A DNA stretch of 64,000 nucleotides from Methanobrevibacter sp. V74 (GTDB taxonomy: Archaea > Methanobacteriota > Methanobacteria > Methanobacteriales > Methanobacteriaceae). The stretch's first letter is position 1; the number at the start of each line of letters is the position of its first letter. This document shows positions 1 through 58,051 of the stretch, piece by piece. The notes beneath the pieces were generated by a model. That model was not told the DNA's origin, did not search any database, and saw nothing but the letters and a program-made list of their open reading frames with translations. The stretch is taken from NCBI RefSeq assembly GCF_963082495.1, contig NZ_CAUJAN010000002.1:124001-188000 (forward strand), given 5' to 3'. The position numbers and the translations under genes were made by a program.

Positions 1-860
1 ACATCAGGATTTTTCTTTTGCGGCATAATAGAAGAAGTTGATGAATATTCATCTGCCATTTCAATAACACCAAATTCATAAGTACTCCATAAAACCAATT
101 CCTCACAGATTTTTGCAAGTGTTGAAGACAATGCAACAAAATCAAAGATAGATTCTGCAATAAAATCCCTTGCTGAAACGCCATCCATGGAATTTTCCAA
201 ATAAGCATCAAATCCAAGTAAATCAGTAGTTAATTGTCTGTTAATAGGAAAGCTAGTAGTGGCCATAGCTGCTGAACCTAATGGATTTAAATTGACACGT
301 TTATATGTATCCGCCAAACGTTCATAATCTCTTTTTAATGCCTGTACATGAGCCATTAAATGATGAGCAATTGTAATTGGCTGAGCATGCTGCAAGTGTG
401 TAAAACCAATGAAAACATCGTCTAAGTGTTCTCCAGCCATTTCAACCAATCCTTCCATAAATTCTAAAATGCCTATTTGAATTTCAATGATTTTCTCTCT
501 TAAAACTAATCTAACATCACATGCAACTTGATCGTTACGGGATTTGGCAGTGTGCATAAAACCGGCTTGAGAACCAATTTTATTAGTAACATAATTCTCA
601 ATTGCCATGTGAACATCTTCAACTGAAGGATCAAAGACTAATACATCATAACCTTCTTCTTTAAGTGAATCGAGTGCACATAAAATATTATCCGCAATTT
701 CAGCATCAATGATCCCTTCATATTTCAACATAGAAGTATGTGCAAAATTAGTTTTAATATCAGCTTCAAAAATAATTTTATCCGCTTCAAGTGATGAAGT
801 GTATTCAGCTGCTTCATCAGTCATTCCAGTCTTAAAACGACCATTTCTAATGTTATCCAA
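1..860 (-). CDS. argH: argininosuccinate lyase, N-terminal part (cut by window edge)
   Basis: Cleaves argininosuccinate to arginine and fumarate, the last step of arginine synthesis, in the cytosol. About 286 N-terminal codons are present and the C-terminus lies beyond base 1. The fumarate-lyase family signature [11 protein letters not shown] is readable right at the edge, and an NIRNGRF-type N-terminus, the usual opening of the family, is seen. I chose a TTG start at 858-860 because AAGGGAT lies about five bases upstream and the conserved N-terminus begins there; no ATG fits. It follows the ribosomal operon in the same direction but is separated from it by a probable terminator. Family assignment is firm; the start is inferred. 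Confidence 0.93.
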
Positions 861-900
861 AAGAATCCCTTCTTTAAAATAAATAAAAATCAAAAATAAA

Positions 901-933
901 TAAAAAAAAAGAAATAAAGATTAAAAAAATCTT
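901..933 (-). terminator. probable terminator after rps27ae
   Basis: Read on the minus strand, a 6-bp inverted repeat (AAGATT 928-933 with AATCTT 917-922) with a short T loop is followed by a run of T residues (901-910). It overlaps the rps27ae stop codon and precedes argH. Confidence 0.5.
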
Positions 934-1084
934 ATTTTTTCATTTCAGTGTATCCACATTTACCGCAGGCAACCCTGTCACCATGGTCAGCCATAAATAC
1001 ACCATCACCACAACGAGGACAAATTTGGTTTTTTCTTACAATTTTGTCTCCATCTACTTCATATAAATCAGATTTTTTTACCAT
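932..1084 (-). CDS. rps27ae: 30S ribosomal protein S27ae
   Basis: A 50-residue zinc-ribbon protein of the small ribosomal subunit. The start [10 protein letters not shown] and four cysteines in two CxxC pairs (CPRCG and CGKCG) match archaeal S27ae, which lacks the ubiquitin fusion of eukaryotes. It is the last gene of the translation operon, 9 bp after rps24e, the usual archaeal neighbour. The stop codon lies in the stem of a probable terminator. The size is normal for the family and there is nothing odd in it. Confidence 0.93.
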
Positions 1085-1093
1085 TCAAATCAC

Positions 1094-1411
1094 CTATTCT
1101 TCTGCATCTGCTTCTTCAGCAGGTTCTTCTTCAGGTTCTTCATTTTTAGCAACAACATGTTTAGCTTCGATGTAAGTTAAATCATCTACAGTATCGTAAA
1201 CTTTAGCATAAGCTAATGCTTTAGGTTCACCGTAGTGTGGTTGTATCTTATCAACTACAACTAAATCTTTTTTACTGTTTAATAAAGCAACTAATTTAGA
1301 TTTAACATCCAATATTTTAGGAGTTGCTTCTCCACTGTAATCAACATAAAACTTAATTTCTTTTCTGTTAAATATTTTATTTTCTTTTTCTTCAAAAATT
1401 TCAATTTCCAT
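1094..1411 (-). CDS. rps24e: 30S ribosomal protein S24e
   Basis: Small-subunit ribosomal protein of 105 residues. The N-terminus reads MEIEIFEEKENKIFNRKEI, followed by the conserved segment with KSKLVALLNSKKDLVVVDKI and the HYG motif typical of S24e. The tail is strongly acidic (repeated E, A and D), longer and more acidic than in many archaea. It sits between the DUF359 gene (12 bp upstream) and rps27ae, a gene order widespread in Euryarchaeota, so it is almost certainly cotranscribed with them. Confidence 0.94.
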   Translation of the reverse strand: MEIEIFEEKENKIFNRKEIKFYVDYSGEATPKILDVKSKLVALLNSKKDLVVVDKIQPHYGEPKALAYAKVYDTVDDLTYIEAKHVVAKNEEPEEEPAEEADAEE

Positions 1412-1423
1412 GATAAAACCTCT

Positions 1424-1936
1424 TCATTTTATTTTAATAAATCCGTTAAGAAGTTCTTGAGCTTTATTTTTTAAATCACGAGCTTTTAAAAGCACTAATC
1501 CTTCATTAGGCTGACCATATAAAATGGTAGTTTCCGGATTTGCCAATATTATACAAGGAAGAACCGCAAGATCTTCTTCCCCTGCCACTTCAATTACATA
1601 ACATTCACCATTGTTAGATAATTCAAGAGCCTTACCTATGGTTTCCCATAGATTATCAGTCAAATACCCCGCAGGATTTTCTGCTTTTAAAATATGCTCT
1701 GCACGTATAACTTCATGAGTATGATTTTTTCTCTGAATTAAATTGTCAATTATGCCAATATTCGGATATAATCCATGTTTTGTAAGATTGGCGAAAGTCG
1801 CATCACCAACAGAAATTAAATACTCGGAAGACTTAATATCATCAATTGCATCTTCAAAGTTAGGATATAATTTGCCTAAAGGTCTTTTAAGCTCCAATAT
1901 TATATCTTTATTTAATTCTGCATCTAAATGTAACAC
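1424..1936 (-). CDS. GTP-dependent dephospho-CoA kinase (DUF359 family)
   Basis: Predicted to phosphorylate dephospho-CoA with GTP, the last step of archaeal coenzyme A synthesis. The 170-residue length and the motifs GDATFANL (about 43-50) and IGIIDNLIQRK (about 60-70) fit the DUF359 family, for which this activity has been shown in Thermococcus; the function here is by family. The gene lies 10 bp after rpoE2 and 12 bp before rps24e inside the translation operon, the standard archaeal location for this family. It is unrelated in sequence to bacterial CoaE. Confidence 0.85.
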   Translation of the reverse strand: MLHLDAELNKDIILELKRPLGKLYPNFEDAIDDIKSSEYLISVGDATFANLTKHGLYPNIGIIDNLIQRKNHTHEVIRAEHILKAENPAGYLTDNLWETIGKALELSNNGECYVIEVAGEEDLAVLPCIILANPETTILYGQPNEGLVLLKARDLKNKAQELLNGFIKIK

Positions 1937-1946
1937 AAAAAACCCT

Positions 1947-2123
1947 CTATCTTACTCTTAAACAATATTCGCCTGGAATCTCAATATTCAATTCACGAGC
2001 AATTTTAGACTCCGTAGGATCAGTTATAATCAAAAGACCACTCCAATTATCGGAAGTTGGATTTCCACAACTAGGACAGTGGTCTTTGCTAGAAATCATT
2101 TTACAAACAGTACAAGCTTTCAT
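1947..2123 (-). CDS. rpoE2: transcription elongation factor Spt4 / RNA polymerase subunit E''
   Basis: A 58-residue zinc-binding protein that pairs with Spt5 on RNA polymerase to aid elongation. It opens MKACTVCKMISSKDHCPSCG, giving two CxxC knuckles for one zinc ion, followed by the usual WSGLLIITDP core. The size is normal for archaeal Spt4. The ribosome-binding site AGAAGG overlaps the end of rpoE1, so the two are translationally close, as in most Euryarchaeota. It is followed 10 bp later by the DUF359 gene. Confidence 0.92.
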   Translation of the reverse strand: MKACTVCKMISSKDHCPSCGNPTSDNWSGLLIITDPTESKIARELNIEIPGEYCLRVR

Positions 2124-2125
2124 TT

Positions 2126-2704
2126 TTAAACCTTCTTAGTTTTTTGTTTAGCTTCTTCAATCCATTCAAATCTGCCAAGATTTGTTTGTCTCATAGTGAG
2201 AGGGATTTTAGAATTTCTATGATTATCTCTACTGTTAATAGATTCATCTTTAATAGAAACACTTACTGCTCTAGCCCTTACTAAGTCACCAACATCTAAA
2301 GTTTTATTTGATTCTTTAGCGAGTAATGCTCCTCTTTTAGCATCATAATTAATATAATCATCAATTACTTGAGAAACATGTATCAAACCATCCATAGGCC
2401 CAATTCTCACAAAAGCGCCGTAATCAGCTATATCTATAACTTCACCATTAAAAATTTCATGTTGCTCTGGTTTAAAGAAAATAGCATCAAAAACAACATT
2501 ATGATATGAAGCTCCATCGCCCATAATGAGTTTTCCATCGCTAATTTCATCAATTTCATTAACACAAATGAGTAAACCAAGTTTTTTATCTAAACGGCCT
2601 TCATAGGTTTCGTTTAAAGTTTGAATTGCAACTTCTTCAAGAGGATATTCAAATTTGTAAGGTGGAATTCTTACAGTATCCTCAATTTTTGTTTTATAAT
2701 ACAA
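2126..2704 (-). CDS. rpoE1: DNA-directed RNA polymerase subunit E' (Rpo7)
   Basis: Rpo7 forms the polymerase stalk with Rpo4 and helps open complex formation and RNA binding. The 192-residue protein has the N-terminal tip domain ([15 protein letters not shown]) and an S1 RNA-binding domain at about 80-160, with [16 protein letters not shown] and DGLIHVSQV. The start codon is TTG at 2702-2704 behind GAGGGAT. It precedes rpoE2 by 2 bp. The length is normal for archaeal Rpo7. Confidence 0.94.
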
Positions 2705-2739
2705 AATAATCCCTCATTTTTTAATAAGTTTAATTAATA

Positions 2740-3132
2740 TTATATTTTACCTTCAACAGCAATATATTTTTTTTGCCTTAAATATACTATTGTTATCCCT
2801 TTGTTTTTTGCACGATTTTTTAATTCAATATCATTCGTAGCTAAAACTTCTGAAACTCTCAGTAACGCATTATCCACAGTTTCATTTTCAAGTAATGAAA
2901 TATCCTTTATTTCAACTTTTGAAGAATTAGCTAACTTCAAAGCTAAATTCGCATTTAACCTTGTTTTACCCTTAGTATTTCTTTTCAAACCCTTCAATTC
3001 ATTGATAACAAAGCTTGGAGTAGTTAATTTATAAGAAGGTAGTAAGTTTTCAAGTTCAGTGATTATGTCTACATTGAACTGAAAAGGAACCATAAAAAAA
3101 TTGGTATCAATTACAACTTCTTTAGAGTCCAT
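2740..3132 (-). CDS. PIN-domain ribonuclease (Fcf1-like)
   Basis: A 130-residue single PIN domain. Acidic residues expected of the metal site are visible: Asp in VIDTNFF near position 9, Glu in VINELKGL near 45 and Asp in ATNDIELKNRA near 100. The last motif, with LKNRAKNKGI after it, is typical of the Fcf1/Utp23-like archaeal branch linked to rRNA or tRNA processing rather than of VapC toxins. There is no antitoxin gene beside it, and it lies between eif2g and rpoE1 in the translation operon, which supports a housekeeping RNA-processing role. Its exact substrate is not known from the sequence. Confidence 0.85.
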   Translation of the reverse strand: MDSKEVVIDTNFFMVPFQFNVDIITELENLLPSYKLTTPSFVINELKGLKRNTKGKTRLNANLALKLANSSKVEIKDISLLENETVDNALLRVSEVLATNDIELKNRAKNKGITIVYLRQKKYIAVEGKI

Positions 3133-3145
3133 TATTATTTTACCT

Positions 3146-4360
3146 CTATTTAATAATACCGTAACCGATTAATCTCCAACGTGCCCCTACTCTACGACTT
3201 AAAGCAACCCTATCTCCTGAACTTGCACATACCGGTAATTTAAGAGTAACATCAACTTTATTCTTTTTAGATGATGTAACAACACCAATAGTAGTTGCAG
3301 TTCCAACATTAATCATTAATGGCTCTTTAATTTTAATTGGAGTAACATCACGTTCTTCTTTAGTTCCAACAACACGATCCAATAACTTAACTTCCATTGT
3401 GAAACAATCTAAAACATCAGGTAAAGTAAATTCCTCACCAGCAACAGTTCCGGATAACGAATCTGATTTTGTTAAAGATGGATCTAATTTTGTTGCAATA
3501 CCAACAAGTCCACCAGGACCGATTTCTTCAACTTGTTTACCATTAGCTTCAAGACCAATAATCTCTGATTTCAGGGTAATTCTTTTACCTTTATTGGTAG
3601 GACCCGGTCTAATTTCAATAGTATCACCAAGTTTAAAAATACCTTGAACTAGAGTACCACCAATAACTCCTCCCCTAATTTTATCAGCGCCAGAACCAGG
3701 TTTATTAATATCAAATGACCTTGCAACATGCATTAACGCATAATCATCAACATCCCTTTCAGGAGGATGAATTTTATCAAGCATTGCCTCAATCAATATA
3801 TCAATGTTAGCACCTTGTTGAGCAGATACTGGTATTATTAAAGCATCCTCGGCACAAGTACCTTTAACAAATTCCTTAATTTCATGATAGCTTTCAATAG
3901 CTCTTTCTTTTGAAACAATATCAATTTTATTTTGAACTACAATAACATCTTTAACGCCAATTACATCAAGTGCCATAAGATGTTCTTTAGTTTGTGGTTG
4001 TGGACAAGACTCATTTGCAGCAATTACTAACACTGCACCATCCATAATTGCAGCACCAGATAACATAGTTGCCATAAGAGTTTCGTGACCTGGAGCATCA
4101 ACAAAAGATACCTTTCTTATTAATTCAGTTTCGCTTCCACAGTGTTCGCATTTATCGGAAGTAGTGTAACATTTAGGTTCATCACATTTGGGACATTTTT
4201 TAAATTCAATATCCGCATAACCTAAACGAATTGAAATACCCCTTTTAGTTTCCTCACTGTGAGTATCAGTCCATACTCCGGATAATGCTTTAGTAAGGGT
4301 TGTCTTACCATGGTCTACATGACCAACTAAACCTATGTTAACATCTGACTGTACGTTCAC
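3146..4360 (-). CDS. eif2g: translation initiation factor aIF2, gamma subunit
   Basis: GTPase subunit of aIF2, which delivers initiator methionyl-tRNA to the small ribosomal subunit. The 404-residue protein shows the P-loop GHVDHGKTT at 13-21, a zinc knuckle with four cysteines (CPKC and CEHC, about 55-75), DAPGH near 90 and NKID near 145. Two beta-barrel domains follow, with the family's conserved end ([11 protein letters not shown]). The SelB-like alternative is excluded by size and by the zinc knuckle. It sits between rps6e and the PIN gene, the standard archaeal arrangement. Confidence 0.96.
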
Positions 4361-4422
4361 AGATAACCACCTTTTTTAATAATTTTAATTCGACTTAAAA
4401 GTAAATAAGAAAAATAGTAAAA

Positions 4423-4806
4423 CTATTCTTCCTCTTCATCATCAACACCGAGAATATCAGCTATTGATTTACTACCGGCTTCAGCAACTACAGTGTTGAT
4501 TTGTACAATATCCTCAGCAATAGTGTTTCCCCTAACAGTTTTTCTTCTTTTAACACCATCTGCTTTAGGATGATAACCAATACCACCACTTAATAAACTT
4601 TTGATTCTTCTAGTGCCTGAAACATCTTTTTTCATAGTGAAACCATTTTTATCACTTCCACCAGTGATTTTTAAAGTGTAACCATCTAAACCAACAATTC
4701 CACCATCAAATTCATCTCCAATGACTAAACCATTAAGAGCTTTAGTATCATCAACTTCCATTTGATAAGTTTCAGCTTTTTGAGACACAACAACTTTGAA
4801 TGCCAT
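4423..4806 (-). CDS. rps6e: 30S ribosomal protein S6e
   Basis: Small-subunit ribosomal protein of 127 residues beginning MAFKVVVSQK. An ATG 15 bases further upstream is in frame, but it is part of the GGAGG ribosome-binding site, so the start at 4806 is preferred. The S6e signature around LTGGSDKNGFTM-like residues (here ITGGSDKNGFTMKKDV) and the KRRKTVRGN motif are present. It ends with an acidic tail. It lies between infB and eif2g and is transcribed with them. Confidence 0.94.
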   Translation of the reverse strand: MAFKVVVSQKAETYQMEVDDTKALNGLVIGDEFDGGIVGLDGYTLKITGGSDKNGFTMKKDVSGTRRIKSLLSGGIGYHPKADGVKRRKTVRGNTIAEDIVQINTVVAEAGSKSIADILGVDDEEEE

Positions 4807-4844
4807 GGTATTTTCCTCCATTAATTATTTTCATAACTATTTTA

Positions 4845-6635
4845 TTATTCAAAAAGACCAAATTTACCCCAATCTGGATCTTGTTTACGTTTAATTTCTA
4901 CAAATTCGTATAAAGTTTCAAACTCATTTTCAGTTAATTTATCTTTAAATTCTCTTTCAATGAATTTATAATGTTTTTCAGGGACATCAACATACAATTC
5001 ATCCCCTTCATCAAATTGTTTTCCGACAATAGCATCTTTAATAGCCATTGCAACCCTTTGACCTCTAGGTATAGAAGGTAATGTTTCGCCTTTATCTTCC
5101 ATACTAACTATTACTCCAACATATTCCCCATTTTTATTAATTAAAGTTTGACCTTGTTTAATTGTACCGCTGAGGGATTCAATTCCAATAATAGCAGGTT
5201 TACTTTGACGGAAAATCAATTTAGGTAAACACATGAACTTAGCAGGTTTGATAATAGCATCATAAAATGCTTTTTTCTTAGCTTCCTCAATTTCGTCAAT
5301 CCATGCTTCATACTCTTCAATAATCTGATAAATCACATCGCCTTTAAAGAGTTTTACATCTGAATTTTCTAAATCTTCCTGAGAATTCGGATTAACATTT
5401 ACATTAAAAGCAATGATTGCACCATGTGCATCATTTTCATTTAAAGCAATGGATGAATTAATAATATCTCTACGATTAACATCTCCAATGTCTGCTTCAC
5501 GAATAGATATATTTAATTCGCTTAACAATGTAACAATAGCTTCAAGAGAACCTAATGTATCAGCTTTAACTAAAATACCTTCATCATCAGTGTGAATAGT
5601 AATATCTTCAATTTCCTTTAAGATTTCCTCTTTGACGTTCTCACTGTCACTTAAAACTCTAAGTGGAGAACCAGAAACAACCTCATCCAAATTAGGAGCA
5701 GCTATTTTAATACCTGCAGCTGCAACAACTTCATCAAATTTTTGGAATTTCTTTTTGGAGTCTCTCATTTCCTCAAGAGGGAGAGGCCTTAAAATAGATC
5801 TAACTTTAGTTGTTAACACCTCATTTGAAGATGTCATTAAAGCTATCTCATCATTAGTTCGTAAAACCCCATCATAAATAATACTGTCAACAGTAAGACC
5901 CAATCCTACTTCTTCTTTAATCTCTAATATAGTACCTTTAGCAGGAGAATTTTCATTGATTTCCAGCTGTTCGGTTAAGTATTCCTGAGCAAGACCCAAA
6001 AGCATTGCTAATACTTCAATAATTCCTTCACCAGACCTAGCGCTAATCGGTATAATACTAATTTGTGAGGCAAAATTACTTATCCTATCAAATCTTTCAG
6101 ATTGGAAGCCCTCTTTGTGAAGAGTGCCAACAATTTCATAAACTTTAGTGTCTAAATTTTGTTGAACACTTGGAGCTTGTTGTGAGAAAGATTCTTTGAA
6201 TGAAGCTCCTTCATGAGTCTCCCAACCAAATAATCTATCTATTTTGTTAGCAACAACAATGAATGGAGTCTTATACATTTTAAGAATATTTAATGCTTCA
6301 TATGTTTGCGGTTTAAAACCATCATTAATATCAACAATTAAAACAGCTAAATCAGCCAATGCGCCACCACGTTTCCTTAAACTAGTAAATGCTGCATGAC
6401 CTGGAGTATCAATAAAGAACAATCCCGGGATTAAATCCTTGATAGTTAATCTTGAAATAAAATTACCACAGATTTCTTCAATAGTGTCATTTGGGATTTC
6501 TGTAGCACCAATATGCTGTGTAATACCGCCTGCTTCTTTATCAGCGATAGTACTACCTCTAATATAATCTAATAATGTTGTTTTTCCATGATCTACATGT
6601 CCTAAAACTGACACAATTGGGGATCTGATTTTCAT
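4845..6635 (-). CDS. infB: translation initiation factor aIF5B (IF2-like)
   Basis: Ribosome-dependent GTPase that promotes subunit joining. The 596 residues carry GHVDHGKTT at 12-20, DTPGH near 76 and NKIDRL near 130, followed by the long helix and C-terminal domains typical of eukaryote/archaeal IF5B. No intein interrupts the GTPase motifs, although inteins occur in this gene in some archaea. It follows ndk by 39 bp and precedes rps6e in the operon. Confidence 0.96.
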   Translation of the reverse strand: MKIRSPIVSVLGHVDHGKTTLLDYIRGSTIADKEAGGITQHIGATEIPNDTIEEICGNFISRLTIKDLIPGLFFIDTPGHAAFTSLRKRGGALADLAVLIVDINDGFKPQTYEALNILKMYKTPFIVVANKIDRLFGWETHEGASFKESFSQQAPSVQQNLDTKVYEIVGTLHKEGFQSERFDRISNFASQISIIPISARSGEGIIEVLAMLLGLAQEYLTEQLEINENSPAKGTILEIKEEVGLGLTVDSIIYDGVLRTNDEIALMTSSNEVLTTKVRSILRPLPLEEMRDSKKKFQKFDEVVAAAGIKIAAPNLDEVVSGSPLRVLSDSENVKEEILKEIEDITIHTDDEGILVKADTLGSLEAIVTLLSELNISIREADIGDVNRRDIINSSIALNENDAHGAIIAFNVNVNPNSQEDLENSDVKLFKGDVIYQIIEEYEAWIDEIEEAKKKAFYDAIIKPAKFMCLPKLIFRQSKPAIIGIESLSGTIKQGQTLINKNGEYVGVIVSMEDKGETLPSIPRGQRVAMAIKDAIVGKQFDEGDELYVDVPEKHYKFIEREFKDKLTENEFETLYEFVEIKRKQDPDWGKFGLFE

Positions 6636-6674
6636 GCTAATCTTCTTTAATAATAAAATTCTAAATTTTTAAAT

Positions 6675-7127
6675 TTATTCATAAATTAAATCATTATCGA
6701 TAATCTGATAATCACAAATTTCATCTTCGTTAAAGAAAAGGTCAATTTCTCTTTCTGCAGATTCAGGAGCATCTGAAGCATGAATAATATTTCTACCAGT
6801 ATCCATACCAAAGTCTCCTCTAATTGTTCCGAGATCTGCTTCTAAAGGATTGGTTGCTCCAACAATTTTCCTAATAGTAGTAATAGCTTCTTCTCCTTGA
6901 ATTACCATAGCAAAAGATGGTGAAGAAGTAATATATTCAACTAAACTTGGGAAAAATGGTTTTTCAGCATGCTCTCCATAATGAGTTTTTGCTAAATCTT
7001 CATCAATTTGAATTAATTTACATGCAACGATTTGAAGACCTTTCTCTTCAAAGCGAGACAATATTTTACCCATAAGACGTCTTTGAACAGCGTCAGGTTT
7101 CATCATAACAAAACTTTTTTGAATCAT
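6675..7127 (-). CDS. ndk: nucleoside diphosphate kinase
   Basis: Transfers the gamma phosphate between nucleoside triphosphates and diphosphates. The 150-residue protein opens with [12 protein letters not shown] and carries the active-site segment [12 protein letters not shown], with the phosphorylated histidine at 116. The length is normal. Its ATG overlaps the TGA stop of rpl24e (ATGA), suggesting coupled translation. The S28e-L24e-Ndk-IF5B order is conserved in Euryarchaeota. Confidence 0.96.
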
Positions 7128-7285
7128 TCTTTAACCCATTTAACTTTTCTTGGAACTCTTCCAAGTTTAATCATATTTTTTTCACATTTGCTGCTGCAAA
7201 AGAAATAAATTGAACCGTCTCTTTTAACATACATTTTTCCGGTACCCTCTTCTATTTCTTTATTACAGAATGAACAAGTTCTCAT
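7124..7285 (-). CDS. rpl24e: 50S ribosomal protein L24e
   Basis: A 53-residue zinc-finger ribosomal protein. It begins [20 protein letters not shown] and has the second cysteine pair in [10 protein letters not shown], the CxxC...CxxxC pattern of L24e, and ends with a basic [10 protein letters not shown]. The stop codon overlaps the ndk start by four bases. It follows rps28e by 14 bp. Confidence 0.94.
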
Positions 7286-7299
7286 GATTTTACACCTTC

Positions 7300-7506
7300 T
7301 TAAGGAGTCCTAATTTCTTTAGCTTCTCTAATTGTATCAAGTAACATTAACATGTCACCTTTTCTTACAGGACCCATAATGTTTCTTGTTAAAATTCTTC
7401 CTTTATCTCTACCCTCGAGGATTCTGCATTTAATTTGCATTACCTCACCAGTCATACCAGTTCTTTTTAAAACTTCAATGACTTCAGCAGGAGTTCCTTC
7501 TTCCAT
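7300..7506 (-). CDS. rps28e: 30S ribosomal protein S28e
   Basis: A 68-residue OB-fold ribosomal protein. The signature [18 protein letters not shown] and the EAKEIR-type C-terminus are those of S28e. The start is the ATG at 7506 with GGTGAT upstream. It lies 34 bp after rpl7ae and before rpl24e in the usual archaeal order. Confidence 0.95.
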
Positions 7507-7540
7507 TTAAATCACCGTAAATTATTCTAAAAAAATATAT

Positions 7541-7909
7541 CTATTCTTTTAATTCAGCAACTTTAACTACAATATCACTAACAGCAGCTTCTGCCTCACC
7601 AGCATCAACAATACATGCGGAAGCAGTACCAACAGTTAAACCAGCAGCTACACCAACTTGTTCTTTGGTTGGTAAGTATATATAAGGAATTTCTTTTTCA
7701 TCAGCGAGAACAGGAATGTGTGCAACGATTTCAGCAGGATCTACATCTTCTGCGATAACAACTAATGCTGCACTTCCTCTTTCGATGAATTTAGTTACTT
7801 CGTTAGTACCTTTTGCTACTTTACCGGTAGCTTGTGCGGTTTCTAATGCTTCTTCAGCTTGTTTAGCTAATTCTTCAGGTGTGTCAAATTTTACATAAAT
7901 GTTTGCCAT
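7541..7909 (-). CDS. rpl7ae: ribosomal protein L7Ae (K-turn-binding protein)
   Basis: Binds kink-turns in 23S rRNA and is also a core component of box C/D and H/ACA sRNPs and of RNase P. The 122-residue protein starts MANIYVKFDTPEELA. An in-frame start 21 bases upstream exists, but GGAGG lies about eight bases before the ATG at 7909, so that start is preferred. The RNA-binding segment KVAKGTNEVTKFIERG and the LVVIAEDVDPAEI core are clear. It is the first gene of the translation operon; a hairpin lies in its leader. Confidence 0.96.
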   Translation of the reverse strand: MANIYVKFDTPEELAKQAEEALETAQATGKVAKGTNEVTKFIERGSAALVVIAEDVDPAEIVAHIPVLADEKEIPYIYLPTKEQVGVAAGLTVGTASACIVDAGEAEAAVSDIVVKVAELKE

Positions 7910-7928
7910 AAAATATACCTCCTTTTTC

Positions 7929-7987
7929 ATCTGGCTATGCCATCCATCGGCAGATATTACAATTCATTTTGAATCATAATATAATGT
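7929..7987 (-). promoter_or_regulatory. rpl7ae promoter and leader hairpin
   Basis: On the minus strand a TATA-like stretch (CATTATATTATG, about 7975-7987) would place the transcript start near 7950-7960. The leader then opens with a GC-richer element in which ATCTG (7951-7955) can pair with CAGAT (7929-7933), and an inner UGCC/GGCA stem is possible. The start codon is 20 bases downstream of the hairpin. Archaeal L7Ae is known to bind its own mRNA leader in some species, so an autoregulatory K-turn is an attractive but unproven reading. Confidence 0.4.
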
Positions 7988-7990
7988 AAT

Positions 7991-8378
7991 TCTATATAGT
8001 TAGATTATTTTTTAACTATAAAATTACTCAAATTATTCGATAGAATAATCTAATATAGTTTTAATAATACTAATTCTTGAATAATTCATATATCACTAAA
8101 TATAATCCCGGGAAAAAATAAGAGGGATTAAACTTTCAATACAAATACTTCTGAATTTCATATAATTTTTAGCAAAACTAAAAATAAAAATTTAGTAATT
8201 AATGAAATAATTCTAGAGAACTAGACAATATTAAATTGGATAGTATAGTATATAAATGTTTGTAAAAATAGAATAAAACAGTTAACTTTTGAGTTTAAAA
8301 ATTTAAATTAAAAATGAAAAAATAGTAAAAGGGATAGTAAAATAAAATTACTATCTATGAAGATAATCATTAACAAAT
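7991..8378. other. gene-free AT-rich spacer
   Basis: No convincing coding frame is seen. The stretch holds an imperfect long inverted repeat (TAGATTATT at 8001-8009 with AATAATCTA at 8044-8052), a small AATCCC/GGGATT hairpin around 8104-8129 and a TATA-like TATATAAAT near 8249. A small RNA is possible but nothing identifies one. Confidence 0.3.
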
Positions 8379-8579
8379 CTATTTGATTGCTAATTTTACA
8401 TCTTCAGCTTTTACAGTTTTTCTACCAGCGTGACGAGCAAAACCGACAGCTTTTTGTGCAACTTCGTTACCGTAATCTTCGATAGCTTCAGTTAATGCAA
8501 TTTTAGCATCATCACTTACTCTTTGTGCTCCAGCGTTTTTGAGAACTCTGCCCACTGGTGCAATAGGTAATTCACTCAT
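8379..8579 (-). CDS. archaeal histone
   Basis: A 66-residue protein that is a single histone fold without tails, of the HMf type that dimerises and wraps DNA. It starts [22 protein letters not shown] and ends with the basic [15 protein letters not shown] typical of the family. The gene stands alone with its own promoter. The ATG has GAGGTG upstream at 8585-8590. Nothing is odd about it; which histone paralogue of the genome it is cannot be told. Confidence 0.96.
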
Positions 8580-8624
8580 TATTTACACCTCACATTTAAA
8601 TTTGTTAATAATAGTTATAATTTG

Positions 8625-8636
8625 CTTATATATAAA
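8625..8636 (-). promoter_or_regulatory. histone gene TATA box
   Basis: TTTATATATAAG on the minus strand lies about 46-57 bases upstream of the histone ATG, a good match to the archaeal TATA box. Transcription would begin near 8600. Confidence 0.55.
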
Positions 8637-8827
8637 TCTATTGTTTTAACATGGTTAAATCTTAAAAATTTCAACATTAGTAACCATGATATTTTAACAT
8701 AAATACTGACACGAATATCTTTAAAAATGTTTTTCATAGATTAGGTTAAATAAAAAATGTATAAATATTGTTTGAATAAAAGCAAATTAAAAGAAAAAAT
8801 TAAAAGTAAAAGTGAATCAAAGCGAAT

Positions 8828-13352: not shown

Positions 13353-16300
13353 TTAGAATGACAAGCTTGAGTAAGTGCCCTTAAGGGTAAATGAACTTGT
13401 TTTCCAATTATATATGTTTCCTAATGAATTTTTTAAACTGGTTGCATCAGCAACCACCCATTTATCCCCAATTAATACCTGAGTCCACACGTGGCCATAA
13501 GTATTTCCACTATTGAATTTACATGTTCCGTGAACATATCTTGCTGCAAGACCTGCAGATCTAAACATCGCCACTAATAAATGGGATTGATCCACACAAT
13601 TCCCTTTTCCACCAGACAAAGTACCATCTGCACCATATTTAGTATTATAATAAAAGCTATACATTATGTGGCATTTTACATAATTAAATATTGCTTCAGC
13701 TTTTTTAAGATCATCAGTTAAACCATTAGTTATTGAAGAAACTTTATTTTTAATTTTATTGGTTATTTGGCAATTTTTAGTAGATTTTAAATAATTACTT
13801 AAATCTGAGAGATAATTTTTCTCATTTAAACCAGTTCCAGTAATTGAAATTGAACCTGAATTAGAGCTAGAGCTTGAACCGCTAGTTGAAATAGTCACAT
13901 ACTTTGGCAATCTAGAACTAATACTATAAAATGATAATATACGTGAGAATGCATCTACAAGTTCATCGTATATAATATTTTTTGAATTGCAATTAGCGAA
14001 ATTCGGAGCTTTTTTATGAGTATTAATATAACTTGCAACATTTTTAGCTAAATCAATAAAACCAGACCGACCTAAATCAATACTTAAACTATCACCAGTT
14101 GGAGAACTAGGAGCAGAAACTCCAGAAATATAAGTAATATCTGAAGTATTTGAATTGCCAATTTGATAAATTGCTCGGCTCATTAAATACATGAATTCTG
14201 CTAAAGTAAATGTAATTCCTCCTGCTGTAACAGTTGATGGAAGAACTTTGTTATTTGTATAATATGTTTTTAAGTTAGAAGCCCCTTTAATAATATTTTT
14301 AATTGATATAGTTTTAGAGGGAGTATCTAATTTTGCATCTGCATTAAACATTACATAGCTAGGCAGTCTTAAGCTAACTTTATAAAATGCTGTAATTCTT
14401 GCAAAAGCATCAATTAAAGACTGGTATTTAATATAACCTAATGAAGAATTGGCATAATTAGGAGCCACACCCTTACTTTCAATAAAGGAACTAACTCTAG
14501 TTGCTAAATCTAAATATTCGGACATGTATAAATTACCGGATTTTACGGTACTGGTTGGATTTGAAGCAACATCCGAGGTTACTGCTAAAATCTCTGAGGA
14601 TTTGCCTGCATTAATATATAAAATAGCTTTAGTCATCAAATATAAAAATTGAGCAGTAGAGTAAGTTACTCCACCAACACGGACAGAAGCCGGAATGGAT
14701 CCGCTAGATTTTATAGAACTATTTAAGTTATATGCTGCAGCAACAATATCTGAAATAGATACTGAACCAGTAATGGACGGAGATCCAGATTGATCAGATA
14801 ATGAGTTGAAATCAACAAAGTTAGTTACGCCCCATCTAAATATAACAGCACCAGACGCAGCACCATCAAGTGCAGCCTGTGTGTCTGCTGCAATTTCCGA
14901 TGGAGATAATTTCACAACATTATCATCAGATTTATAACCTTGTAAACCTGCCCATACTTGAGCACCTTCAGAATTATCTACAAACCATTTTGCAATAGTT
15001 TTAATCCAGGATGAAGTTTTTCCATAATTTCCTTTATAAATCATTGGAATTACAACATCCATATACCTACTAATTACAGAATAATCTTGACCATAATAAT
15101 ATGCATTACTTGTAGTTTCAGGCATTAAAGCACATGAAACAATAATATTTGGGTCAGTATCATGAATTGCTTCAGTGATTTGTTGTGCAAATTCACTAAT
15201 GGCTGCAGTACCGCCTGAAGTCTTATATGCATTTCCAGGATATCTTATGTAATCTAAATGAATACCGGAAATTCCCTTAATAGATGCATATTTTTGTGCT
15301 TCAATGATTTTTTGCTCAAAGTAGTCCGAATTGACATTACCATTAACTACAGGATTTACCCATGAACCATTAGCATAAAATGCCTGCATCCAAATATGAA
15401 CTCTCATTCCTAACTTATTTGCACTAGCAATCCATGATTCAACTTCCCCTTGAGTTTTTATTGTTAATGCATAGAAATTTAAGAATAAGTCAGTGGTTCC
15501 TTTAGAAGCTAAAGTTCCTAAACTGACACTACCCATATCTCCACCGTAAACCCAGTATCCATATCCGGTTGTATTCTTTTTGAGAACTTCGATATTTGTG
15601 GAACTGAAAGATGGGGCATTATCATTATCCCCAATAGCTTCATATTTAAATGAAACTGTGTAATTTCCTGTAGGGACATTCGCATTAAATAATGCATAGC
15701 CGCTTGAAGAAGTAGTGGCAGAATATGTTTTTGAATTTACTGTCAATTTAACTGTCTTGCCAGATAAAACCTTGCCGTTTGAATCTTTTAATAAAACTTT
15801 ATAAGTTTGTACACCTTGATAGTAAGAAGATCCGCTTTTCCAAGTTAAAGAAGTATTTGATCTTTCCTTAACTGTAATGGCTGTGGACATTGTTTTTGAG
15901 TTAACTTTAGATTCGCCGTTATATGTGTATGAAATTGTATAATTGCCAACATCCAGACCAATAGGAAGGGATACAACACCATTACCATCAGTAGTTTTGG
16001 TATAGTTCTTACCATCCACCTTAAGAGTAACAGTTCTTTGTGCCAAAGGAACATTACCTGAGGTTAAAGCAACTTGGAATTTAGTATTTGCACCATGACC
16101 AAAGGTTTTTGTACTTTTAACCGTGAAAGTTGGATTTTTACTAGCCAGTATCTCAACCTTACTGCCTGCACTGCATTTCTTATAAAAACTGTTACCTGCA
16201 AATGAATAGGTTATTTTATAAATACCTGCTCCAAGTGAAGGCAATTTAATTTTGGCAACACCATTTGCATTAGTTTTTGCACTGTATTTCTTACCGTTTA

Positions 16301-17312
16301 TTTCAAATTTGATAATTTTACCTTTCCCCGGAGCATAACCAAATTTATTAATTAAGTTTACTTTAACTGTTTTTGAATCGCTTTTAAGGAAAGTGTAGGT
16401 TTTTGTTGATAAAGAAGTGGTTGTAGTCCTTACAACTTTAACCTTGTTTTTAATTTTCAAGCCATCCTGAGTATTATGAGACATTATTTCATAAGTACCT
16501 TTTTTAAGATTAATTAAAGATAAGCTAGCCACTCCCTGACCGTTTGTTTTTACTTTGTATGTTTTTCCATTAATCTTAAACTTGATGTATTTATTGGCTA
16601 GTGCTTTCCCATCACTTTTATAGAATTTTGCTGTGAATTTTTTGCCATCAGTGTAAACTTTGGAAATATCACTTGCTGAAATTGTAGACACTACTTTAAA
16701 AGTTGTAGATAAGCTATAACCAGTTGTTGGATTTAAAGCAACGACTTTATAAGATCCCGGTTTAAGATTTATTGCAAGATAAGCCACTCCATTTGCATTA
16801 GTTTGTTTAGTATATGTTACACCATTTACAGTAATTTTAACATTTGTATTATTTAACACATTACCGTGTGCATCTAAGAATGTTGCAGTATATTGAGCGC
16901 TTCCTTTATAATACTTAGACATATCTTTTGCAGTGATTGTCTTAGATACATCAATTGTTGAAGAAACGTTACTATCACTTTCATTTGATGAAATAACAGC
17001 AACCCCATCATCACTACTTGGAATATTATCATTAGTCGAGTTAGTTGATAAATTATTTGAATCTTCAGATTCTAAAACTTCTTCACTTGATAGAGAAACT
17101 TTAGATGAATCATTATCAACATTTGAATTACTTGATACAGAAATTTCTGATGAACCAGCAGTATTCTCCAACGGGACTGATACATCTGATGTGTCATCTA
17201 CTAAGCTAGTAGCATATGAATCTGTAACATTTACGTCACTTGCAGAAATTGCGCCAACTGTTAGGACAGCAAAAAGCAATGCTAACAAAGTGAGCAATAT
17301 TTGTTTGTTCAA
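13353..17312 (-). CDS. secreted multidomain pseudomurein hydrolase-like protein (Ig repeats, GHL10-like barrel, PMB-like repeats, transglutaminase-like peptidase)
   Basis: A 1319-residue extracytoplasmic protein. In order: signal peptide (1-24); Ser/Asn-rich linker (to about 125); five or six Ig-like repeats of about 90 residues (to about 575); a TIM-barrel region (about 584-860) with GIHLDYIRYPG, resembling the GHL10 glycosyl-hydrolase-like family; four segments resembling pseudomurein-binding repeats (about 870-1160); a low-complexity serine linker; and a transglutaminase-like domain with Cys1239 (GNCVDQSH), His1274 (YGHVWTQ) and Asp1289 (VVADAT). Repeats plus this domain recall the pseudomurein endoisopeptidases PeiW and PeiP. 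It may cut its own wall, as an autolysin or remodelling enzyme. The start is TTG with GGAGGT eight bases upstream. Activity of the barrel is unproven. Confidence 0.85.
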   Translation of the reverse strand: MNKQILLTLLALLFAVLTVGAISASDVNVTDSYATSLVDDTSDVSVPLENTAGSSEISVSSNSNVDNDSSKVSLSSEEVLESEDSNNLSTNSTNDNIPSSDDGVAVISSNESDSNVSSTIDVSKTITAKDMSKYYKGSAQYTATFLDAHGNVLNNTNVKITVNGVTYTKQTNANGVAYLAINLKPGSYKVVALNPTTGYSLSTTFKVVSTISASDISKVYTDGKKFTAKFYKSDGKALANKYIKFKINGKTYKVKTNGQGVASLSLINLKKGTYEIMSHNTQDGLKIKNKVKVVRTTTTSLSTKTYTFLKSDSKTVKVNLINKFGYAPGKGKIIKFEINGKKYSAKTNANGVAKIKLPSLGAGIYKITYSFAGNSFYKKCSAGSKVEILASKNPTFTVKSTKTFGHGANTKFQVALTSGNVPLAQRTVTLKVDGKNYTKTTDGNGVVSLPIGLDVGNYTISYTYNGESKVNSKTMSTAITVKERSNTSLTWKSGSSYYQGVQTYKVLLKDSNGKVLSGKTVKLTVNSKTYSATTSSSGYALFNANVPTGNYTVSFKYEAIGDNDNAPSFSSTNIEVLKKNTTGYGYWVYGGDMGSVSLGTLASKGTTDLFLNFYALTIKTQGEVESWIASANKLGMRVHIWMQAFYANGSWVNPVVNGNVNSDYFEQKIIEAQKYASIKGISGIHLDYIRYPGNAYKTSGGTAAISEFAQQITEAIHDTDPNIIVSCALMPETTSNAYYYGQDYSVISRYMDVVIPMIYKGNYGKTSSWIKTIAKWFVDNSEGAQVWAGLQGYKSDDNVVKLSPSEIAADTQAALDGAASGAVIFRWGVTNFVDFNSLSDQSGSPSITGSVSISDIVAAAYNLNSSIKSSGSIPASVRVGGVTYSTAQFLYLMTKAILYINAGKSSEILAVTSDVASNPTSTVKSGNLYMSEYLDLATRVSSFIESKGVAPNYANSSLGYIKYQSLIDAFARITAFYKVSLRLPSYVMFNADAKLDTPSKTISIKNIIKGASNLKTYYTNNKVLPSTVTAGGITFTLAEFMYLMSRAIYQIGNSNTSDITYISGVSAPSSPTGDSLSIDLGRSGFIDLAKNVASYINTHKKAPNFANCNSKNIIYDELVDAFSRILSFYSISSRLPKYVTISTSGSSSSSNSGSISITGTGLNEKNYLSDLSNYLKSTKNCQITNKIKNKVSSITNGLTDDLKKAEAIFNYVKCHIMYSFYYNTKYGADGTLSGGKGNCVDQSHLLVAMFRSAGLAARYVHGTCKFNSGNTYGHVWTQVLIGDKWVVADATSLKNSLGNIYNWKTSSFTLKGTYSSLSF

Positions 17313-44870: not shown

Positions 44871-44897
44871 AAAATAGAGAATTATTTAATCTCTATT
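44871..44897 (-). terminator. terminator of the 44893-47655 adhesin gene
   Basis: On the minus strand AATAGAGA (44890-44897 side) pairs with TCTCTATT (44873-44880 side) over 8 bp, followed by T-rich sequence. The stop codon lies in the stem. A near-identical structure ends the 53411-57574 gene. Confidence 0.55.
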
Positions 44898-47655
44898 TTT
44901 TAACTGTAATTTTTTTACTTACACTGTCTTTTAAATAACTTACTTTGTAAGTGTATTTTTTCCCAATTTTTAGTTTTTTAAGAATGTTTTTCTTAATATT
45001 AAAGGTTGCAAGTCCTTTTTTATTGGTTTTTACGTTATATATTTTGCCATTAAATTTTAAAGTGATTTTTTTTCCTTTTAAATATTTTCCATTGATTTTC
45101 TTCAAATAAACTTTGATTTTAAGTGTTTTAGCTGATTTTTTAAGTTTTAAATTCTTAGCAATCACTATGCTTTTTACTGTTATTTTGTTAGTTGTTTTAA
45201 TTCCATTATACAATGATGTTATTGTGTATTTTTTAGAGCTTGGATTTAAATTAATTATAAATGAAGCAAATCCATTTTTATCAGTTTTTGCAAATATTTT
45301 CTGACTATTAACTTTGAAAATTATTGTTTTGCCACTTAAAGCCATATTTCCCTGAGTTAATCTAACTTTAAATATATTTCCACTTGTATAAAATGTTACC
45401 ACATTATTTCCAACCAGTTTAGTTTCTAAAATAGATACAGAAATGTTTTTAGCAAATGATTCATACTTATCATCCCCAGAATATGCAATATTAACATTGT
45501 GTTCACCTTCACATAATTCAAGGATTTTAATTTTAGCATTGCCTTTTACTAAAGTTTCAACATAATTTTTACCACCAACACTAACTGTTAAGTTACCAGT
45601 TGCATCTAAAGGTAAATTAATAGCAAAATATAGGCTATTGTCTTTAAAAGAATTTATATCCAATACTTTATCAATATTAACGATTTGAACTTTAGATACT
45701 TTAATACAAGTTGTGTTTTCATTTGAGCAATATTTATCATCACCTTTGTAATTTAAAATTAGGATATAAGTTCCTTCTTCAGAAAAGCTTAAATTTAAAG
45801 TTGAAACACCATTTATAATAGTTAAATTTTGTTTTATATTGTTAAGCTCAACAGTTAGGTTTCCAGTAGCATCATTAGCTAAATTAAAGGTTATATTTAC
45901 CTCATCACCCACTTTAACATCACTAGGAATTAGGATATTAATTAACGGATTAATCTTATCAACAGTTACAATAACATTTTTTGTTTTTTCTCTGTATTTT
46001 TTATTTCCAGAAAACTTCACAATTAAATTATTATTTCCAAAAACTAAATTTGGAATATCAATATTAATAGTACTATTAGTTAATTCTTTTGTATAATTTT
46101 TATCCCCTACAAAAACATCAATATTACCATTAGCATCAGCAGGCACAATAATTTTTAAAGTTGCATTTTCACCAACTTTGATTTCACTTGGAGCGATTAC
46201 ATAAATCTGATAATCATCAACTTTAGATACAATAAAATTAACTGAAGTTAAACCATGAATATGATTTACTTTATCAAAAAAGTAAATATTAGCCGTATAA
46301 TTACCTTCATCTAAATCATTAATAGTTACATTAACTAAAGCTTCATTATTTATACTTAAAGAATGAGTTTTATTATTAATAGTAACATTAACAATGCCAG
46401 ATATAGCCTCAGGCAAATTTACAGTTATATTTGCATTTTCAGTAGGATGAATATTATTACAGCTTGCATTAATGCCAATATTTTTAAAATTTAAATTAAT
46501 TATTTGTTCATCTAATTTAGCAGTGATCTTGTTATTTGAAGAATTGCTAGTGTAAATTACTTTAAAAGTACCATTTTCTAAAATTGCAGTCCATGCTAAT
46601 TCACCTGTATTTGAAGATAAATTAACCACCATAGGTCTTATATTTTTAATAACTTCATTTGTACCATTCCTCATTAATTTACCAATGATTTCATATTTAT
46701 TATTTCCCAAGTACTTTTCACAAATAGAAAATACCGCATAACTTGAAACTAAACATTTACCAATAGCCCACGTACCTGAAGGATAATAAGTCATCTGCCC
46801 ACTAAGGGTAACAACATAATTAGGAAGAGTATTTTGACAGAACCAACAATCTTTTAACATTCCTATTTGTGATGTAGTCATCATTCTTGCAAAAAAATGA
46901 GACTCAGGATCTTTATCTAAAATACAGTATTTAAATAATGCCTTAACATTAAAATAATATTTTTCAAGAATTATATCACACTTACTAAACTTACAATTAA
47001 TAAATTCAAAAGGAGAATGGTAAGATAAAACATAAGTACGGTAAAAATTTAAAAAAGTACAATTATGAAATTTGCCATCCATAAATTTACCTTTCACTAC
47101 ATTAAACCAACTATAATTACCACTAATTGGAGTATAATTTTGTACATAACCATAATCTTTTGCATCAAAAGTAATATTAGAAAATGTAAAATTAGAAGAC
47201 GCAGAAACAAATCCTAGTGACTGTGAATAACTATTAGAGTTAACTGGTTTAATAATAACATTTCCACCATTAATGGATTGCATTAATAAATTACTTGTAT
47301 TAAATTTTAAGTTTGATCCAACATAATAAATTCCATCAAATATATTAATTTTTACATTACCTTTGCCATTAACATCAATACATGCTAAATCTAGAGTTGC
47401 AAAAGGATTTTCATAAGAACCATTACCTCCATCTTCAGTGATGTTTTGACCAACATGAACTTCATAAAACTCTTCAGATGATTTTTGATTATTATTAACT
47501 GAACTTAATATGTTCTCATTATCAATATCATTAACAATTATTTCATCTCCATCATAGGTTAATGAACTATTATCATTTGTTGCACTAACTTGCCCAACAC
47601 AACAAATTAATAAAATCATCATTGTTAAAACAAAAACTTTTAACTGTTTTTTCAT
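44893..47655 (-). CDS. adhesin-like surface protein (beta-helix, Ig-like repeats, shared C-terminal module)
   Basis: A 920-residue secreted protein. In order: signal peptide (about 1-26, ending VSATND); an acidic linker; a beta-helix opened by YEVHVGQNITEDGGNGSY (about 65-330); four or five Ig-like repeats with DATGNLTV-type strands (about 400-800); and a basic C-terminal module (about 815-920, with KSAKTLKIKVYLKK and SYLKDSVSKKITVKK). There is no membrane anchor at its end, so it is either released or held by the basic module. The ATG has AAGGTG upstream. It is clearly paralogous to the second half of the 53411-57574 protein. Confidence 0.88.
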   Translation of the reverse strand: MKKQLKVFVLTMMILLICCVGQVSATNDNSSLTYDGDEIIVNDIDNENILSSVNNNQKSSEEFYEVHVGQNITEDGGNGSYENPFATLDLACIDVNGKGNVKINIFDGIYYVGSNLKFNTSNLLMQSINGGNVIIKPVNSNSYSQSLGFVSASSNFTFSNITFDAKDYGYVQNYTPISGNYSWFNVVKGKFMDGKFHNCTFLNFYRTYVLSYHSPFEFINCKFSKCDIILEKYYFNVKALFKYCILDKDPESHFFARMMTTSQIGMLKDCWFCQNTLPNYVVTLSGQMTYYPSGTWAIGKCLVSSYAVFSICEKYLGNNKYEIIGKLMRNGTNEVIKNIRPMVVNLSSNTGELAWTAILENGTFKVIYTSNSSNNKITAKLDEQIINLNFKNIGINASCNNIHPTENANITVNLPEAISGIVNVTINNKTHSLSINNEALVNVTINDLDEGNYTANIYFFDKVNHIHGLTSVNFIVSKVDDYQIYVIAPSEIKVGENATLKIIVPADANGNIDVFVGDKNYTKELTNSTINIDIPNLVFGNNNLIVKFSGNKKYREKTKNVIVTVDKINPLINILIPSDVKVGDEVNITFNLANDATGNLTVELNNIKQNLTIINGVSTLNLSFSEEGTYILILNYKGDDKYCSNENTTCIKVSKVQIVNIDKVLDINSFKDNSLYFAINLPLDATGNLTVSVGGKNYVETLVKGNAKIKILELCEGEHNVNIAYSGDDKYESFAKNISVSILETKLVGNNVVTFYTSGNIFKVRLTQGNMALSGKTIIFKVNSQKIFAKTDKNGFASFIINLNPSSKKYTITSLYNGIKTTNKITVKSIVIAKNLKLKKSAKTLKIKVYLKKINGKYLKGKKITLKFNGKIYNVKTNKKGLATFNIKKNILKKLKIGKKYTYKVSYLKDSVSKKITVKK

Positions 47656-47734
47656 CGTTTCACCTTCATTTTAGTATTAAACAATTAATTAAATAAAAAA
47701 ATAATATAAAAATAACATTATATTATCAATAACA

Positions 47735-53348: not shown

Positions 53349-53379
53349 AATCCACCTCCACTTATGGATCTTAAAATAA

Positions 53380-53417
53380 AAAAAAAAAATAAAATAGAGA
53401 AGAATTAACTCTATTTT
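53380..53417 (-). terminator. terminator of the 53411-57574 adhesin gene
   Basis: AAAATAGAG (53391-53399) and CTCTATTTT (53409-53417) form a 9-bp stem with a 9-base loop; read on the minus strand it is followed by a T-rich run (to about 53380). The stop codon is in the stem. The next gene starts only about 30 bases further on. Confidence 0.6.
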
Positions 53418-57574: not shown

Positions 57575-58051
57575 TAAATTCACCTGTTTTAGAATATTAA
57601 TTGAAATTGCAAATTTTTTTAAAAAAAGATGCAAAAAGTTCAACTACCAATAAATTAATTAGAAAATTTAGTTAAACTCAAATCATATAAATGATATGTT
57701 ATAAAACTCAAATTCTGATAAAATTACTTATTTTAAAATAAAATTAACAAAAAATTAAAAATATTTTTTTATAGAATACTTTAAAATTATTCTGTTAAAC
57801 TTTATTTAATTAATACTTTATTTTACTCATATATAAATGTGTTGAATATTAATAGTAATATAATCTAAAAAATATAAGATTATTTTCATAAAATTTATTA
57901 AAAATTAAACATTTTAATATAAATATTTTAAAATAATAGTTTATTTTCATTAAATTTTTTAAAAATTTAATTTTAAAGACAATTATAAAGAGTGTCCACC
58001 TAAATTGATTTTTTATTGCATTGCCTGTTGAACTCATATTTTAAACTTTCT
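57575..58051. other. gene-free AT-rich stretch with adhesin promoter
   Basis: CATTTATATGAT-like TATA box on the minus strand at about 57682-57692 is placed to drive the 53411-57574 gene with a leader of about 85 bases. The rest, to the insertion element, is extremely AT-rich, and I see nothing else in it. Confidence 0.45.

Follow-up and report, generated by a model that had tools for sequence, protein, structure and literature searches.

According to the available parts of two reports, PeiW, PeiP, and PeiR cut the peptide part of pseudomurein (PMC2989375, PMC6189367). PeiR is a viral enzyme composed of pseudomurein-binding repeats (PMBR) and a C39-type cysteine peptidase; lysis of methanogens was reported for it, and a barrel domain is not mentioned in the accessible part of the text (PMC6189367). 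On the glycan side, DigH is described in the accessible part of its report as breaking down glycan strands of the bacterial wall (PMC12288456). An enzyme for the pseudomurein glycan strand was not encountered in titles and abstract starts among the literature matches listed, a weak negative with subscription journals mostly outside the search. Here we describe a gene of Methanobrevibacter sp. V74 which may combine both kinds of activity. It is located on the minus strand of a stretch of 64,000 nt, hereafter the window (NCBI RefSeq assembly GCF_963082495.1, contig NZ_CAUJAN010000002.1, positions 124,001 to 188,000 of the forward strand), to which all unlabelled coordinates refer. We consider it fairly probable that the gene encodes a bifunctional pseudomurein hydrolase which is secreted, binds to the wall, and presumably serves the remodelling of the cell's own wall. 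This reading is built on domain profiles, conservation, conserved residues, and viral gene context, from which both activities and the bonds cut are inferred. The novelty lies in the combination as a putative two-enzyme wall cutter and in its lysin-type use by viruses, the component families being already known. The gene and its modules are as follows.

13353..17312, minus strand: whole gene, encoding a probably secreted 1319-aa modular wall protein (open reading frame and translation)
17238..17312, minus strand: hydrophobic signal-like N-terminal segment, residues ~1-25 (read by eye)
15588..16982, minus strand: immunoglobulin (Ig)-like repeats, residues ~111-575 (Pfam Big_1, Big_3_5, and MG4 matches)
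14733..15587, minus strand: barrel-type putative glycoside hydrolase domain (DUF4015), residues ~576-860 (PF13200, 40-row alignment, and weak PDB profile matches)
13863..14732, minus strand: PMBR region, residues ~861-1150 (PF09373, five stretches)
13356..13832, minus strand: transglutaminase/C71-like cysteine peptidase domain, residues 1161-1319 (PF01841, PF12386, and phrog_37889)

A single protein with a barrel, PMBR repeats, and a Cys-His-Asp domain had been proposed in a first-pass annotation made from the sequence alone; Pfam and a real open reading frame bear this out, with the coordinates right, and the Ig-like repeats noted there were recovered as Big_1 and Big_3_5. In the proposed mechanism, the PMBR segment would anchor the protein to the sacculus, while the Ig-like repeats would extend it through or out from the wall. 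The DUF4015 barrel would cleave the beta-1,3 N-acetylglucosamine/N-acetyltalosaminuronic acid glycan strand via Asp687 and Glu732, and the C-terminal transglutaminase-type domain would cleave the cross-linking peptide via Cys1239-His1274-Asp1289, as PeiW and PeiP do. The layout is more than a chance arrangement, since barrel, PMBR region, and transglutaminase-like domain share a single frame in 22 of the 31 named loci having the barrel, nearly all of which are from Methanobrevibacter and a few from one and the same genome.

PMBR (PF09373) was found in five stretches with 101 bits, the best one at residues 925-953. At least three repeats are needed for binding, as reported for MTH719 in the accessible text of PMC2989375; the five stretches exceed this number and would predict wall binding. 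For the C-terminal domain, Transglut_core (PF01841) scores 81 bits, and the family of pseudomurein endoisopeptidases phrog_37889 aligns with E 2e-6 over residues 1101-1279. A PDB profile search with this domain gave three matches, 3isr being the first. The catalytic residues named in the first-pass annotation are all in place and invariant in an alignment of 25 rows, the window protein among them:

13596..13598, minus strand: Cys1239, invariant in 25/25 rows and aligned with the Cys of PeiW and PeiP
13491..13493, minus strand: His1274, invariant in 25/25 rows and in 9/9 rows of an alignment with viral enzymes
13446..13448, minus strand: Asp1289, invariant in 25/25 rows, with no Asp of PeiW or PeiP opposite, the alignment being imprecise there

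The barrel was assigned to DUF4015 (PF13200, "putative glycosyl hydrolase") with 31.2 bits at a cut-off of 27, the best stretch covering residues 664-768. It had been called GHL10-like beforehand; GHL10 itself (PF02638) gave no match in the window protein at E<=1, so the barrel stands under the better name DUF4015 and GHL10 was dropped as a strict family label. The GHL10 cut-off of 27.9 is passed by a solo barrel of genome G001 (L104, 31.4 bits; its GH18 match also exceeds the Pfam cut-off) and narrowly missed by the fused protein L105 of the same genome (27.3 bits). A PDB profile search with the barrel gave 4s1a at E 9.5e-6, along with weak matches to GH18 enzymes, YaaH among them. Two acidic residues stand out by conservation and are likely the catalytic acids:

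15252..15254, minus strand: Asp687 of GIHLDYIRYPG, proposed catalytic acid, in 86/86 barrel rows and 7/7 viral barrels
15117..15119, minus strand: Glu732 of MPE, proposed second catalytic acid, in 84/86 barrel rows and 7/7 viral barrels

Furthermore, Gln742 and Asp752 are each kept in 86/86 barrel rows. For cutting the glycan, the barrel is a strong candidate.

Within the phylum, 133 of 151 genomes have the barrel, among them 86 of the 91 of good quality, and all 20 genera are represented. A scan of 395 genomes yielded 136 with a barrel match; outside the phylum only 3 of 244 archaea gave one, all weak (best 51.6 bits). Fusion to the transglutaminase-like domain, for which both matches had to lie in equally long frames sharing contig and strand, was observed in 14 of 28 chosen genomes, which represent three families and 9 of 16 genera; four of the 28 belong to the genus of the window, five were picked for an absent barrel, and the others are spread over genera. 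The fused protein of G001 has 764 aa with the barrel, five PMBR stretches, and the transglutaminase domain, and Pfam lists no Ig repeats for it. Deep relatives, namely L105 (G001), L106 (G150), and L107 (G146), have PMBR and Transglut_core by Pfam and the barrel by a custom model. In case of L112 (G141, 657-8815), a transglutaminase-only frame, two barrel-only frames, and one fused frame are adjacent, and L116 (G010, 1514-6993) contains one transglutaminase-only and two barrel-only frames. These clusters are a further sign of glycan- and peptide-directed parts working together.

The barrel is present in viruses as well. Scanning viral contigs with the barrel alignment revealed 7 loci; when the scan was repeated with another alignment, the identical 7 contigs came up. 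In L133, a PMBR-barrel frame of 362 aa follows terminase and portal genes and precedes head-type genes; in the phage collection this protein matched 4 records over its PMBR part alone, it gave no plasmid match, and the window barrel had no match in the phage collection. The PMBR-barrel frame of L134 overlaps the frame of a preceding C39 lysin-type gene and is followed by terminase and portal genes. The lysin-type gene scores 43 bits for C39, 47 bits for phrog_37889, and 24.0 bits for PMBR, just under the cut-off of 24.9, and PHROGs links it to the Pei and endolysin families. L129, L131, and L132 comprise the barrel, then PMBR (which passes the cut-off in L129 and L131 but not in L132), then a C-terminus resembling C39 cysteine peptidases, without a signal-like segment by eye. 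Their C-terminal parts are mutually homologous. A stretch resembling the PMBR-C39 end of L129 is found in L144, L145, and L146 with no barrel attached, and L147 matches the peptidase part alone. L128 consists of Ig-like sequence, the barrel, and a C-terminal region that matches C71 weakly (15.5 bits), and L130 of Ig-like sequence and the barrel. An integrase gene is located downstream in L128, L129, L130, and L131; among the frames scanned around L132 none was found. Structural or packaging genes were found near L129, where a tail-protein match is situated upstream, L133, and L134 only. Because PMBR is present, the hosts are presumably pseudomurein archaea.

Three other explanations have to be weighed against a bifunctional hydrolase. 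The transglutaminase-like domain could form peptide cross-links while the barrel trims the glycan, in which case the wall would be remodelled and not lysed. Such a role for exported transglutaminases was proposed by Leahy 2010 (PMC2812497) and Lupo 2025 (PMC11915815), in the accessible parts of both, and it agrees with the occurrence of the transglutaminase-like domain in 27 of the 28 chosen genomes, often in multiple copies, as well as with Transglut_core far outscoring C71 in the window protein (81 vs 19 bits). Cutting is favoured over cross-linking, however, because Methanobacterium virus Drs3 of the phage collection carries a protein of 300 aa (ORF35) composed of PMBR and this transglutaminase-like domain after its tail genes, where a cross-linker makes little sense; no other observation speaks as strongly against what has been published. 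Drs3 ORF35 scores 120 bits with the custom transglutaminase-like model compared to 27 for PeiW. Moreover, PeiW and PeiP rank second and third behind 3isr in the PDB profile search, and phrog_37889 aligns across the PMBR and catalytic regions jointly. We regard the cross-linking version as rather unlikely. Less probable still is a protein which mainly acts as an adhesin of gut methanogens, with a barrel directed at another surface polysaccharide or that of a partner. It would suit the Ig-like repeats with their many relatives in the genome, the barrel proteins lacking a PMBR match, and the grouping of transglutaminase-type proteins with adhesin-like proteins in the accessible text of PMC11532034. 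The Ig repeats are not the core of the protein, though, because Pfam lists none in the fused relatives of G001, G150, G146, and G138, and the viral PMBR-barrel proteins lie amid packaging and head genes, that of L134 adjoining a C39 lysin-type gene.

Lectins with a dead GH18 fold exist, and the barrel might likewise be a catalytically dead glycan-binding module. GH18 enzymes carry the motif DxxDxDxE with the catalytic Glu just after the Asp. This Glu is absent from the barrel: within SGIHLDYIRYP, residues 688-691 read YIRY and offer no acidic residue where GH18 has its Glu, in a gap-free comparison by eye in a region where HMMER inserts gaps, and position 689 is Ile, Leu, Met, or Val across the aligned barrel rows. 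A GH18 mechanism was ruled out on this ground, and catalysis must therefore differ from that of GH18. A dead module is nevertheless highly improbable in view of the two acids and many further residues that are near-invariant in the 86 barrel rows, both acids being kept in 7/7 viral barrels, and of the L133 protein, which would then be PMBR plus barrel without any catalytic part.

Besides the absent GH18 Glu and the published cross-linker proposals, several observations weigh against the bifunctional hydrolase. In the window protein, Peptidase_C71 (PF12386) remains at 19.4 bits below its cut-off of 22, which is passed by the relatives L105 (23.7) and L115 (24.6). The peptidase part is C71-like, with a score short of the C71 profile itself; of the profile searches suggested in the first-pass annotation, the one for PMBR was positive, whereas GHL10 was unmatched and C71 stayed below its cut-off. 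The viral-contig scan with the transglutaminase-like alignment gave no relative. C39-type Pfam scores of the viral fusions are below the cut-off in L129 (18.5 bits) and L132 (15.8 bits) and missing in L131, and no capsid or tail gene was found among the scanned neighbours of L128, L130, L131, and L132. No barrel match was obtained in 18 of 151 phylum genomes, including 5 of the 91 good-quality ones, which makes a universal essential role unlikely. Certain barrel proteins have no PMBR match, e.g., one in G127 with a beta-helix (barrel by the custom model) and the Ig-barrel proteins of 590, 517, and 509 aa in the window's own genome, the latter also without a match to the peptidase-like part; the substrate may thus not always be pseudomurein. 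Among the 14 control genomes, a single one, from a Bacteroides, also gave a DUF4015 match, which makes a restriction to pseudomurein makers untenable for DUF4015 as a whole. Finally, a close stand-alone barrel occurs in contigs of two Verrucomicrobia metagenome-assembled genomes (L033 1954-2841 and L034 5836-6744).

The idea that one polypeptide attacks both glycan and peptide has good support from context: the barrel is fused to PMBR, is nearly confined to this phylum in the archaeal genomes scanned, keeps Asp687 and Glu732 nearly invariant, and is used by viral proteins with PMBR alone or along with a peptidase-like part. The idea meets its counterweight in the cross-linker proposals (accessible parts of PMC11915815 and PMC2812497). 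Going one step further, we lean slightly towards the barrel being a pseudomurein-specific glycan hydrolase family, i.e., the missing "archaeal lysozyme": near-universal in the phylum, used as a viral lysin module, shared with gut Verrucomicrobia, and repeatedly combined with two types of cysteine peptidases to cut glycan and peptide.

The Verrucomicrobia barrels share 57 percent identity with the window barrel and begin with a hydrophobic N-terminal segment, the frame of L034 running past the end of the L034 sequence covered. In the barrel tree the pair is nested in a mostly fused Methanobrevibacter clade (99/96 support), and a transfer of the barrel between gut methanogens and bacteria is suggested. 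Contamination was considered and judged unlikely for L034, the neighbours of which look bacterial by eye, no search of these neighbours having been made. Mapped on the barrel tree, the fused label has to change 12 times, at least 9 of these changes being imposed by branches with good support. The count may be too high, since some unfused labels (e.g., L083 at a contig end) may stand for truncated proteins and two labels, L079 and L082, were assigned as fused by hand on the basis of the longer loci L115 and L106. In view of the 12 changes, the idea that the fusion arose cleanly just once was set aside. In the peptidase-domain tree, the window domain groups with paralogues from its own genome that are not fused (83/88 support), and a separate group holds the fused proteins of G047 and M. 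millerae (95/95). This tree is poorly resolved, with 19 of 39 inner branches open, and one origin of the fusion may be compatible with it. Taken together, the trees and the viral C39-type fusions suggest that glycan- and peptide-cutting parts were joined repeatedly, which argues for a putative shared task.

The window's genome (G000; 2.30 Mb, 15 contigs) contains one full fusion. Two frames of 865 and 995 aa combine Ig-like repeats, PMBR, and the transglutaminase-like domain without the barrel, and DUF4015 occurs at 4 sites, every one a barrel of the window kind. Since fused and partial proteins are found side by side in this genome, barrel, PMBR, and transglutaminase-like parts are separable and were combined. 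Two neighbouring Ig-barrel genes (L004/L005, contig C4, 221825-224892) have no PMBR or peptidase match, and similar tandem barrel frames occur in L038, L039, L040, and L043. Repeats related to the Ig-like region of the window protein are scattered over many sites of the genome. In the window itself, four large open reading frames of 920, 1361, 525, and 1410 aa are situated at 44893-57643 on the minus strand, three of which match the Ig-repeat region; they probably encode further adhesin-like proteins. The first-pass annotation had suggested an autolysin for cell division or wall growth; by their presumed identities, the frames neighbouring the gene do not point to division. The gene starts with TTG, preceded by a Shine-Dalgarno sequence (GGAGGT, 17326-17321) at a spacing of eight bases, and TTTATATA at 17398-17391, ~80 bases 5' of the start, resembles an archaeal TATA box by eye.

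A conserved candidate for glycan cutting which is used by viruses too would offer a tool to lyse and genetically handle methanogens, a defined target for the control of rumen and gut methanogens, and a route to asking how rigid-walled archaea grow and divide.

Among the known systems, PeiW and PeiP of the viruses psiM100 and psiM2 (family C71) likewise consist of PMBR followed by a transglutaminase-type cysteine peptidase, and their Cys and His align with those of the window protein at 22-23 percent identity of the peptidase part. Unlike the window protein they are small (284 and 305 aa) and devoid of barrel and Ig repeats. PeiP of psiM2 precedes an integrase gene, as do the proteins of L129 and L131. 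DigH is labelled GHL10; compared to it and to other DUF4015, GHL10, and GH18 barrels, the window barrel occurs in an archaeal wall-binding context, lacks the GH18-type Glu, and would face a beta-1,3 substrate. Genome G047, which we take to be M. smithii, has two transglutaminase matches, one of them within a fused frame of 1503 aa. On this assumption, the domains of the fused protein have probably already been tabulated for M. smithii, the accessible table of PMC11532034 giving 2 transglutaminase, 2 PMBR, and 1 "putative glycosyl hydrolase" protein. The Group III transglutaminase-type adhesin-like proteins of Methanobrevibacter smithii and Methanosphaera stadtmanae described there also have Big-type domains, PMBR, and a C-terminal transglutaminase, and neither the joining of barrel and transglutaminase nor a role as wall hydrolase is discussed in the accessible text (PMC11532034). 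PeiR-type viral lysins share with the window protein the combination of wall-binding repeats and a cysteine peptidase, but the peptidase belongs to a different family (C39), and it is this C39-like module which is joined to a barrel of the window type in L129, L131, and L132.

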